A stretch of DNA of 64,000 nt from assembly GCF_008364765.1 (NCBI RefSeq), contig NZ_VTUY01000008.1:194954-258953 (forward strand), in the 5' to 3' direction. Position numbers and translations under genes: made by a program. Below, piece after piece: positions 24 to 64,000 of this stretch. The notes below the pieces were generated by a model. That model was given only the letters and a program-made list of their open reading frames with translations. It searched no databases and was not told the DNA's origin. Source of the DNA: Bacillus sp. CH30_1T (GTDB lineage: Bacteria > Bacillota > Bacilli > Bacillales > Bacillaceae_B). Within the stretch, counting starts at the first letter, position 1, and each line of letters begins with the position of its first letter.

Positions 24-218
24 TCTCAATCTCCTCCTTATATTCAACTTGCCAGTAACCCCTAATCCTCTTAGTAGTATCATAGCTTCGCTTGTTATAC
101 GAGATCTTTGTCCCAACCAGCCTCAAACATGTTTCTACCAGTAGGGGGTGAACGGTTTAACTGACGGGATCTAAGTCCCACGGGGGCGGACGTTCTACCC
201 TGGCTACTGTTATAATAA
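24..218 (-). ncRNA. Candidate bridge (seek) RNA region of the left-edge IS110 element
   Basis: About 195 bases without a convincing ORF lie upstream of the minus-strand IS110-type start. They contain short stem-loops, for example GGGA (166-169) with TCCC (176-179), and a GC-rich block at 176-195. In IS110-group elements the long 5' non-coding end is transcribed into a bridge RNA whose loops specify target and donor DNA. The position, length and lack of coding fit that role. The RNA boundaries cannot be fixed by eye, and the element border is unknown. Confidence 0.4.
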
Positions 219-58305: not shown

Positions 58306-58956
58306 TTATCTAGACTTTACTTTATATGTCAAAGCCCAAGTCATATCAAGAATAACACCTTTTCCTTTATTATGCGACTTCATTGCCTTCCCAAGTTTTT
58401 TACAATATACCCCTGTGATACCTGCAATACCAGCTACAGGTGGTAACCAAAATAGTATAGTTGCATAATCCTGTTCAGTATCTGATGCATCTTCCAACTG
58501 TTTAATTGCTTTTTTAGCTTGTGAATCAGTATATGTTGCCCTTACTCCCCACCAATAAGTTTTAGAAGTATAACCTTTCCTAGCAGCAGCCATAAATTTA
58601 TATTTATTAGTAACTGATAAATTAGTAATTGATAAATCTTCATTAACCACTACTTGTCCATTTTTTACTTGTCTGTTAATTTCTTCAAAAGATTTTTCTA
58701 AAACCGCTAATTCATTTTTTATATATACATCTTGAGGGATACTACTATCAACATACAAAAAGCCTTGATCATTTTTATGAACATAAGGCGCTACTTCAAA
58801 AATAACTTCTGAAGCATCTTCAGCTAATGAAGCTACCGGTAATCCTGTAATCTCGTTTGATATATTTTCATTTGCATGAGCGATATTCGATAAAAATCCA
58901 CTTGAGAATCCTAAAGTTAATATTGTTGTTGCTCCTAAAATAAGTGCCTTTTTCAT
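58306..58956 (-). CDS. Secreted WWG-motif protein, possible bacteriocin-like toxin
   Basis: The protein has 216 residues. The signal peptide (MKKALILGATTILTLGFSSGF through NIAHA) is cleaved near residue 28. Residues 29-115 are hydrophilic and pro-region-like (SLAEDASEVIFEVAPYVHKN). The C-terminal part has KTYWWGVRATYTDSQAKKAI, a helix, the hydrophobic ATILFWLPPVAGIAGITGVY and SHNKGKGVILDMTWALTYKVK. The WWG-hydrophobic-GKGV layout resembles Bacillus secreted peptides I associate with bacteriocin-like proteins, but I cannot name a family. AAGGGTG precedes the ATG. Confidence 0.7.
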   Translation of the reverse strand: MKKALILGATTILTLGFSSGFLSNIAHANENISNEITGLPVASLAEDASEVIFEVAPYVHKNDQGFLYVDSSIPQDVYIKNELAVLEKSFEEINRQVKNGQVVVNEDLSITNLSVTNKYKFMAAARKGYTSKTYWWGVRATYTDSQAKKAIKQLEDASDTEQDYATILFWLPPVAGIAGITGVYCKKLGKAMKSHNKGKGVILDMTWALTYKVKSR

Positions 58957-62888: not shown

Positions 62889-63194
62889 TCTGACAGGCAC
62901 ATAAGAATCGCCCCTTTCAAATTTAATAGGGGTCTGAGTGGTTCGTAAATCCTGCCAATATTATAAAAAAGTTCAAACTCCGGTCCATTGACGGGAGTAT
63001 TTTTGTGTTCTTTTTTCTTTACGTCATCCCCCTATAAAATAGGCTTTTGTATCAGTCACAATACCCAGCAAGATGACATAAATTGTTTGGGAGTGTTCAT
63101 ATTTATAGTGAATTTACCTAAATTACAGAAATTTTTCTTGGAAAGCTCAATTGTTTTTGTTCCTTAATTGTGAGAGACATTGGGTAAACTTTTT
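62889..63194. other. Intergenic region before the bacteriocin precursor
   Basis: No gene. A half copy of the REP-like unit (GGGGTCTGA, around 62931) is present. The promoter of the precursor should lie in the last 150 bases; none is clear. Confidence 0.35.
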
Positions 63195-63211
63195 GGGAGG
63201 TAATGAAATTG

Positions 63212-63463
63212 ATGAATAATTTTCACAATGAACTTCAGAGTCTGAATGTAGGTGATTTCCAGGCAACACAGCCTGTTTCATGGGATCAAAACATGTATGA
63301 TCCTAATGACGAACGAATTTTCCTTGGATTTGGAGGCTGTTTCGGCTTTGGATTCGCATGCTTCTTTAGTTGCTTTGGTTGTGGTGGATGCTTCCGTTGC
63401 GGAAGATGCGGCAGATGCGGAAGATGTGGCGGGTGCGGACGGTGTGGACGCTGCGGCCGTTAA
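63212..63463 (+). CDS. Heterocycloanthracin/sonorensin-type bacteriocin precursor
   Basis: The peptide has 83 residues from ATG at 63212; GGGAGG (63195-63200) is 11 bases before it and only two before the ATG at 63203. The leader MNNFHNELQSLNVGDFQATQPVSWDQ matches the ELQSL-DFQ-P-WDQ pattern of this precursor family. The core has Phe/Gly-rich GFGGCFGFGFACFFSCFGC followed by GGCFRC and a CGR/CGG repeat to the end; 12 Cys in all, spaced by three in the tail. In this family Cys (and Ser) are cyclised to thiazoles (oxazoles) by a cyclodehydratase. The next gene is a maturation protein. Few Ser/Thr occur, so products would be mainly thiazoles. Confidence 0.93.
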   Translation: MNNFHNELQSLNVGDFQATQPVSWDQNMYDPNDERIFLGFGGCFGFGFACFFSCFGCGGCFRCGRCGRCGRCGGCGRCGRCGR

Positions 63464-63491
63464 TCAGGTTTTAGAATATCGTTTTCAACTT

Positions 63492-63526
63492 GATCCCTGT
63501 ATGAGTCAGTGCAGGGGTCTTTTTTT
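63492..63526 (+). terminator. Terminator of the precursor gene
   Basis: GATCCCTG (63492-63499) pairs with CAGGGGTC (63512-63519) using one G-U pair, then seven Ts. The precursor can thus be made in excess of the modification enzymes. Confidence 0.85.
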
Positions 63527-63557
63527 ATACATAAGGGACAAAGTGAGACTCATACGA

Positions 63558-63572
63558 TGATAATGATAGTCA
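63558..63572. promoter_or_regulatory. Fur-like box before the maturation gene
   Basis: TGATAATGATAGTCA matches the 7-1-7 Fur box TGATAAT-N-ATTATCA at 12 of 14 positions. It lies 27 bases before the ATG of the maturation gene. Iron (or peroxide/zinc through PerR or Zur) control is possible but untested. Confidence 0.45.
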
Positions 63573-63598
63573 TATTAGCGGGTGTAAGGAGGAGCGCT

Positions 63599-64000
63599 AT
63601 GGCAAAATTGGACCCTTCTATGCGTTTAAAAGTAAAGAGGGATACGTTTTATCTCCCTGAACCAAACAGCGGTGTTTTCTTTAGGAATAACCAATGCTCT
63701 TTCCGCATGGAGGGAAGTGGAATTGATCAATGGGTTGAGAAGCTGCTTCCGATGTTCAATGGGGAGTACTCCCTTGAGTATTTGACGAACGGACTGCCAG
63801 TCCCTTATAAAAACAGGGTCATGGAAATGGCAGAGGTTTTGCATAAAAACGGGTTTGTTCGGGACGTGAGCAGGGATCTGCCACACCAGCTTCCCCAACA
63901 TGCATTGAAAAAATTCGCATCACAGATCGAATTTGTCGACAGTTTGGCAGGTTCGGGAGCTTCAAGGTTTGAAACCTACCGCGGGGCCAATGTCCTGGCA
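63599..64000 (+). CDS. Putative thiazole-containing bacteriocin maturation protein (5' part)
   Basis: ATG at 63599 with AAGGAGG (63586-63592) opens a frame that stays open to the window edge (134 codons). It begins AKLDPSMRLKVKRDTFYLPE and has FRMEGSGIDQWVEKLLPMFNGEYSLEYL, LHKNGFVRDVSRDLPHQLPQ and ASQIEFVDSLAGSGASRFE. I recall this as the start of the large ThiF-like proteins named putative thiazole-containing bacteriocin maturation protein, found beside YcaO cyclodehydratase and dehydrogenase genes. The remaining part, expected to be several hundred residues, lies outside. Confidence 0.85.
   Translation, partial: MAKLDPSMRLKVKRDTFYLPEPNSGVFFRNNQCSFRMEGSGIDQWVEKLLPMFNGEYSLEYLTNGLPVPYKNRVMEMAEVLHKNGFVRDVSRDLPHQLPQHALKKFASQIEFVDSLAGSGASRFETYRGANVLA

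Follow-up and report, generated by a model that had tools for sequence, protein, structure and literature searches.

The locus at the edge of the 64 kb window (the whole stretch of DNA analysed, contig positions 194954-258953 of a 4.9 Mb genome) is a complete four-gene heterocycloanthracin/sonorensin cluster encoding a precursor peptide, an F protein, a fused C-D cyclodehydratase and a dehydrogenase. Judging from conserved sequences upstream of two of its genes, the cluster is probably run by the mother-cell sporulation programme, with the enzymes made early and the peptide late. The locus joins a known kind, and the sporulation-type promoters recurring throughout the order are the part worth following. 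The seemingly new element is the apparent control of the cluster by sigma-K- and sigma-E-type promoters; their resemblance to promoters used only in sporulation suggests that these presumed antibiotics may be spore products.

Identification of the cluster genes

The precursor scored 49.4 bits against TIGR03601 in the HMM search (cut-off 35), in agreement with the heterocycloanthracin-type leader proposed in the initial annotation, and it is the sole match to that model genome-wide (E up to 1). The described composition was likewise found, the peptide containing 12 Cys residues, the Phe-rich block within GFGFACFFSCFGC and a CGR/CGG repeat, which together give a Cys-Xaa-Xaa repeat core. The ATG at 63212 is the best start codon because the alternative upstream ATG at 63203 lies only 2 nt downstream of GGGAGG and, in the longer frame, the TIGR03601 match starts at residue 4. 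The next gene, previously read as ThiF-like, encodes an F protein of 633 residues that matches TIGR03693 with 732.8 bits (cut-off 561.9); the 134 residues lying in the window alone score 207.9 bits.

Genes for a YcaO protein and a flavin dehydrogenase had been anticipated within about 10 kb to the right. Both follow the F gene directly and end approximately 5.0 kb past the window edge. The cyclodehydratase is one protein matched by TIGR03882 (146.7 bits), TIGR03604 (415.5 bits) and PF02624; it has two CxxC pairs and ends in PxPxP, as do the proteins of 22/22 relatives. The SagB-type dehydrogenase matches TIGR03605 (196.7 bits, two domain matches), and the Lys-Tyr pair of its N-terminal domain is kept in all 22 relatives. 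The meaning attached to the PxPxP and Lys-Tyr motifs is presumed here. The assignment to azole-modified (TOMM) clusters is borne out by the TIGR03601, TIGR03693, YcaO and SagB-type matches, and five of the seven features listed for the heterocycloanthracin/sonorensin group are present, namely the precursor, F protein, fused C-D cyclodehydratase, SagB-type dehydrogenase and Cys-Xaa-Xaa core; the other two listed features are a shortened, F-dependent C domain and an azole-containing mature product. In 22/22 named loci the F, C-D and B genes are immediate neighbours. By F protein, most of the nearest named relatives belong to Rossellomorea, so the host is probably a Rossellomorea.

Table 1. Positions of genes and putative control elements of the cluster (window coordinates unless stated; L002 is the extended locus).
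Feature	Position	Strand	Evidence or remark
GerE-like box AAATAGGCTTTT	63037-63048	+	exact match to RWWTRGGYNNYY, the presumed consensus
AC, sigma-K-type -35 determinant	63058-63059	+	17 nt before CATA
Second TRGGY-type box, reversed (ACCCA on + strand)	63063-63067	-	column conservation at -14 to -10; putative role
CATAAATT, sigma-K-type -10 element	63077-63084	+	
Precursor peptide gene, 83 aa	63212-63463 (stop included)	+	TIGR03601, 49.4 bits
Precursor leader, residues ~1-35	63212-63316	+	predicted boundary
Precursor Cys-rich core, residues ~36-83		+	predicted boundary
Hairpin resembling an intrinsic terminator, with a T run behind it, in the gap from precursor to F gene	63492-63519	+	
Sigma-E-type promoter ATA-N17-CATACGAT, SpoIIID-like GGGACAAA within the spacer	63531-63558	+	
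F-protein gene, start (ThiF-like leader-binding protein)	63599-64000	+	TIGR03693
F-protein gene, whole	contig 258552-260450, stop to 260453 (L002 3553-5451)		TIGR03693
Fused C-D cyclodehydratase (YcaO) gene, 648 aa	L002 5454-7400, beyond window		TIGR03882, TIGR03604, PF02624
SagB-type dehydrogenase (B protein) gene, 525 aa	L002 7421-8998, beyond window		TIGR03605

The predicted chemistry is as follows. The F protein would bind the leader and offer the core to the YcaO protein for closure of Cys residues to thiazolines, and the flavin enzyme would oxidise the thiazolines to thiazoles. In the available text of PMC4603692, the C domain of heterocycloanthracin systems is described as shortened and activity as dependent on the F protein. 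The BA_2677-type family, as presented in PMC2674419 and in passages of PMC4603692, has in common with the present cluster the TIGR03601 leader, F protein, fused cyclodehydratase and B protein, together with a CXX-repeat core showing tripeptide indels. Sonorensin of Bacillus sonorensis MT93, reported in the accessible part of PMC4544038 as an isolated antimicrobial peptide, is linked to the same group by the NCBI model TIGR03601, which is named for both heterocycloanthracin and sonorensin. Thiopeptide clusters with an F protein, as outlined in parts of PMC4603692, share the ThiF-like leader-binding protein and fused cyclodehydratase; unlike in those clusters, no cycloaddition enzyme or lanthipeptide-type dehydratase was found among the neighbouring proteins scanned.

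Core sequence and gene order in relatives

Both the core and the adjacency of precursor and enzymes had been considered unusual, and comparison with relatives contradicts both views. In the family sample of 36 genomes, all of one genus in the grouping used, the precursor exceeded the cut-off in 22 genomes at 23 loci (one genome has two), and the F gene adjoins it at all 23. The Phe-rich and CGR/CGG core is present in 22 of the 23 loci, the exception being L008 (genome G015) with another arrangement of CFx and CGGR blocks. The core is the standard of the genus and recurs in other genera, so the claim that it is unusual was rejected.

Heterocycloanthracin-type clusters are common in the order sample of 397 genomes, with a precursor match (E up to 1e-4) in 90, of which 81 exceed the curated cut-off, and an F gene in 110. 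In 85 of the 90 precursor-bearing genomes a precursor match precedes the F gene in the same orientation, with 117-352 nt separating the HMM matches of the two genes. One of the 85, G346, counts through a second, weak match, its stronger one being 903 nt away. The distance is 4.0-10.1 kb in four further genomes, and one weak precursor match belongs to a genome without an F gene. Nine of the 21 genomes with an F gene only were fetched, and four of them had a precursor next door (G159, G189, G207, G232). Adjacency is the rule in the sampled order, and the proposal that it is unusual was rejected on the 85/90 genomes sharing the arrangement. The remote precursor described by Haft (PMC2674419) and in passages by Cox (PMC4603692) characterises the B. 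cereus group. The present cluster differs from the BA_2677 type in that the precursor adjoins the enzymes, as it does in B. licheniformis according to Haft (PMC2674419), and in that the core is rich in Phe and Arg.

Among relatives, core length varies largely in steps of whole tripeptides. Some TIGR03601 matches contain stops; in the five such loci translated with flanks, the model overruns the peptide end. At one unit of several same-genus precursors, e.g. L004, L006 and L010, a Cys-to-Gly change gives GGGGRC. Genome G029 has two heterocycloanthracin precursors approximately 2.5 Mb apart (L010, L025), each beside its own F gene. Six precursor matches (E up to 1e-4) were found in each of G584 and G594, two genomes from a different order, which suggests precursor families within one cell. 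No plasmid relatives were found by tblastn of the plasmid collection.

A sigma-K-type element upstream of the precursor gene

Alignment of the DNA upstream of the 23 same-genus loci revealed conserved islands amid variable sequence. In the window, AC and CATAnnnT stand at sigma-K spacing at 63058-63084, with CATA 135 nt upstream of the precursor start codon. A total of 113 loci were then considered at the level of the order, with a precursor found in 99 and none in 14, five of which were expected to hold one (L080, L108, L117, L118, L125) and nine of which were fetched for the F gene. CATAnnnT is present within 260 nt upstream of 97/99 precursors (300 resamplings: mean 29.3, maximum 43), AC precedes it by 15-18 nt in 85 (resampled mean 5.2, maximum 13) and the sigma-K form, AC-N17-CATAnnnT, is found upstream of 81 (resampled mean 1.4, maximum 6), these counts coming from loci that share ancestry and are not independent. 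The sigma-K form occurs in at least one locus of 28/31 genera and in every locus of 22, and the 18 precursors without the exact form are mostly near-misses with GC for AC or altered spacing. The 64 kb window as a whole contains eight copies of the AC form on both strands, that of the precursor included.

The consensus of 97 loci reads roughly AAATaGGCnnTTgnATcaGTaACAATrCCCa-N9-wCATAwTTTGTTGrrGAgaGT, in an alignment anchored on CATA that favoured AC and TTG and placed one row (L016) on another CATA. Columns that were not scored are equally strong: T at -37 (0.93), GG at -35/-34 (0.86, 0.94), CC at -12/-11 (0.95, 0.92), T at +10 (0.94) and G at +14 (0.94). L132 and L133, which have no CATAnnnT, are left out of the alignment. 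These two loci (G207, G232) encode precursors with CAGRCGGF repeats, and their F genes keep the sigma-E-type element.

Exact matches to RWWTRGGYNNYY, which we take to be the GerE consensus, were found as putative sites in 53 of the 97 aligned loci (resampled mean 0.9, maximum 6), 50 of them at a single offset, 40 nt before the -10 CATA. No paper giving the letters of the GerE consensus was found in the open PMC literature.

It is very improbable that the upstream blocks lack promoter function and are sequence retained by descent or RNA leaders. The 5' region of the precursor is long, counted from CATA, and partly conserved, as would suit such a reading; however, the boxes persist while the spacers vary across 31 genera, their spacing equals that of known sigma-K genes, and no Rfam family reaches its gathering score.

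Two other candidates for the region were rejected. The sole plus-strand match to a sigma-70 promoter near the precursor overlaps the start codon, with three matches in the region versus 1.9 in shuffles, and the search of the 5' region for an RNA family gave sub-threshold Rfam matches only (best E 0.078).

A hairpin and a sigma-E-type element upstream of the F gene

Two terminator-like hairpins are present in the region versus a shuffle mean of 0.7, and the hairpin between the precursor and F genes recurs in the same-genus alignment with stem letters changed in L008. Beyond it, ATA and CATAnnnT stand at sigma-E spacing in the window copy (63531-63558). The spacer sequence GGGACAAA is not an exact match to what we take to be the SpoIIID consensus. 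Over 84 loci the F-gene element following the hairpin reads roughly ACATAaggGACAAAttgnnnTaCATAnnATgatA. The sigma-E form, ATA-N17-CATAnnnT, is located upstream of 83/92 F genes (resampled mean 0.57, maximum 3), the 92 being the 99 loci minus four with no F start within 420 nt and three in which the start was not recognised. It occurs in at least one locus of 30/31 genera and in every locus of 29, and a looser sigma-E-type element precedes the F gene in six of nine fetched pieces in which no precursor adjoins it.

Exchanging the two forms between the two sets of upstream sequences yielded the AC form in 3/92 F upstreams and the ATA form in 1/99 precursor upstreams. For the predicted assignment of the two elements to different sigma factors, this swap is the decisive internal control. 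According to the proposed scheme, sigma-E RNA polymerase would transcribe the enzyme genes first, from the promoter between the precursor and F genes, and sigma-K, with the help of GerE, would transcribe the precursor later. The hairpin would presumably stop most precursor transcripts before the F gene.

Assignment of the sigma factors

As a positive control from the same genomes, the sigma-K form was compared with that upstream of spoVFA, which we take to be a sigma-K gene. AC-N17-CATAnnnT is present in 18/19 spoVFA loci with an ORF found, from a set of 20 loci of which L155 gave no ORF; a 21st genome had no locus. All 12 same-genus spoVFA genes continue from the end of the -10 element with TGTTGAA, close to the order-wide precursor consensus TTGTTGrr, and the corresponding letters of the window's own copy are TTGTTTGG. 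The gerE candidate of the same genome, a 74-aa ORF (PF00196, 82.3 bits), is preceded by AC-N17-CATATGAT, so that the AC-CATA spacing of the precursor is that of spoVFA and gerE. Close to it is an ORF apparently encoding succinate dehydrogenase subunit B, presumably the arrangement of B. subtilis. Among the best 25 of 27 matches, no NCBIfam model over its cut-off names the gerE candidate.

The corresponding control for sigma-E was weak, with ATA 15-18 nt before CATAnnnT in 14/30 spoIVA upstreams and no CATAnnnT upstream of the genome's own spoIVA. A stricter genome-wide sigma-K pattern gave four sites, one of them before spoVFA, versus two for the reversed pattern, and was uninformative. The spacings found here agree with the published gaps between the logo elements of the two factors if the logos are read as we assume. 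These gaps are given in passages of PMC517825 as 15 nt for sigma-K and 12 nt for sigma-E, each plus or minus one, and the mother-cell regulators named there are sigma-E, SpoIIID, GerR, sigma-K and GerE. Parts of PMC11736430 place GerE in the SigK regulon and cotY under the joint control of SigK and GerE.

Sporulation-type promoters are not mentioned in the text of Haft 2009 (PMC2674419) or in the available sections of Cox 2015 (PMC4603692), and the words spore and sporulation are absent from the main text of the sonorensin paper (PMC4544038). Within the accessible portions of the open PMC literature, no link of heterocycloanthracin to sigma-E, sigma-K or GerE was found, and the literature as available to us gave no account of how a mature product is built, what it does or when it is made, apart from the reported activity of sonorensin. 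According to excerpts of PMC6962202, sporulation genes and a putative heterocycloanthracin gene are alike up-regulated in B. cereus biofilms, which fits the sporulation reading but proves nothing. The available part of a B. thuringiensis proteome study (PMC4363619), in which an unspecified bacteriocin was undetected while most sporulation proteins were detected, counts against it. PMC9912610, from the portion at hand, concerns another B. cereus YcaO gene, BC5122.

Neighbouring genes and the fate of the product

No exporter was seen among the eight main ORFs of at least 100 aa in approximately 11 kb after the dehydrogenase, five of which were scanned with Pfam and NCBIfam and three judged by eye. 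The next three genes of the genome itself (ABM domain, methyltransferase, DUF5643-like) were found in the flanks of 0/22 named loci. When all ORFs of 100 aa or more flanking the operon were clustered in 23 loci (the genome's own and the 22 named), no neighbouring family beyond the cluster genes was present in more than 9/23. The families at 9/23 are an upstream NrnA, a CBS-domain protein and a small membrane protein (by eye), which are read as housekeeping. The sole transporter-like family recognised is a permease of the window's 52 kb region, present in 5/23 loci within the upstream housekeeping block (by eye). A subtilisin-like ORF (L002 17653-18894, by eye), situated approximately 8.7 kb beyond the dehydrogenase, does not belong to any family shared by five or more of the 23 loci. 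A 216-aa ORF on the minus strand (58306-58956) has a signal-peptide-like start.

The initial annotation envisaged a possible new bacteriocin. A secreted new bacteriocin is unsupported, the most frequent neighbouring families being upstream, housekeeping-like and confined to 9/23 loci, and the putative promoters pointing to the sporulating mother cell. It is unlikely that the product is a heterocycloanthracin bacteriocin secreted in the ordinary way in late growth, with upstream blocks that serve some other stationary-phase regulator. The family name and the sonorensin reports (PMC4544038, in part) speak for such a product, as does the up-regulation of a putative member in B. cereus biofilm cells in the available text of PMC6962202; however, that text also has sporulation genes up-regulated in those cells at 24 and 48 h, the permease of the housekeeping block is the only recurrent exporter-like family beside the cluster, and what sets the two upstream elements apart is precisely the sigma-E/sigma-K determinant, each form hardly ever occurring in the place of the other.

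On the preferred reading of mother-cell control, the product would be kept in the mother cell, because the cluster has no dedicated exporter, until its deposition on the spore or its release by lysis, either of which would make an exporter unnecessary. If true, the two-step control would explain the absence of a travelling exporter, protease and immunity gene. Extended to the whole family, the reading is tentative, plausible and short of probable: heterocycloanthracins may be sporulation products, not conventional secreted bacteriocins, with azole machinery under sigma-E, a precursor under sigma-K and GerE, and a polythiazole on the spore surface or freed by lysis that would arm or shield the spore. 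Such peptides could then be missed in vegetative cultures, and sporulation control makes function accessible to simple tests with spores and with strains deleted for the sigma factors.

A special case, in which azole-modified repeats rich in Cys, Arg and Phe would serve as building blocks of the coat or crust and kill nothing, appears rather doubtful. The late sigma-K/GerE-type promoter, as in crust genes (cotY, in passages of PMC11736430), is consistent with it, as are the missing exporter among the ORFs described above and the tripeptide steps in core length; against it, sonorensin is reported to kill bacteria, and release by lysis fits the same promoters.

Distribution among spore formers and beyond the order

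SpoIVA was found in 209 and absent in 90 of the 299 genomes of the class sample. Precursors are present in 52/209 SpoIVA-positive versus 0/90 SpoIVA-negative genomes (Fisher p 1.7e-9, uncorrected for kinship). At this level L201 gave no precursor call, and L210 belongs to the window's own order. Outside the order, AC 17 nt before CATAnnnT within 260 nt was found in only 4/25 precursors scanned. The ATA form is present in 13/22 named F upstreams, comprising 13/13 Rossellomorea and Bacillus loci versus 0/9 others (six Paenibacillus, Oceanobacillus, Cohnella and an Alicyclobacillaceae bin). In 6/6 named Paenibacillus loci and in the Cohnella locus, however far from the usual position, the F gene is preceded at 550-764 nt by the exact AC form.

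Eight of the 20 class-level loci listed, all of genus g156, have TGGGC...ATACCyA...CATA in the same order (by eye). These loci (L189, L191, L194, L195, L199, L200, L205, L207) encode a leader resembling MDDFKKELKKL, and the TGGGC and ATACCyA boxes before CATA, with a shifted -10 element, may be the variant of this control found in that lineage.
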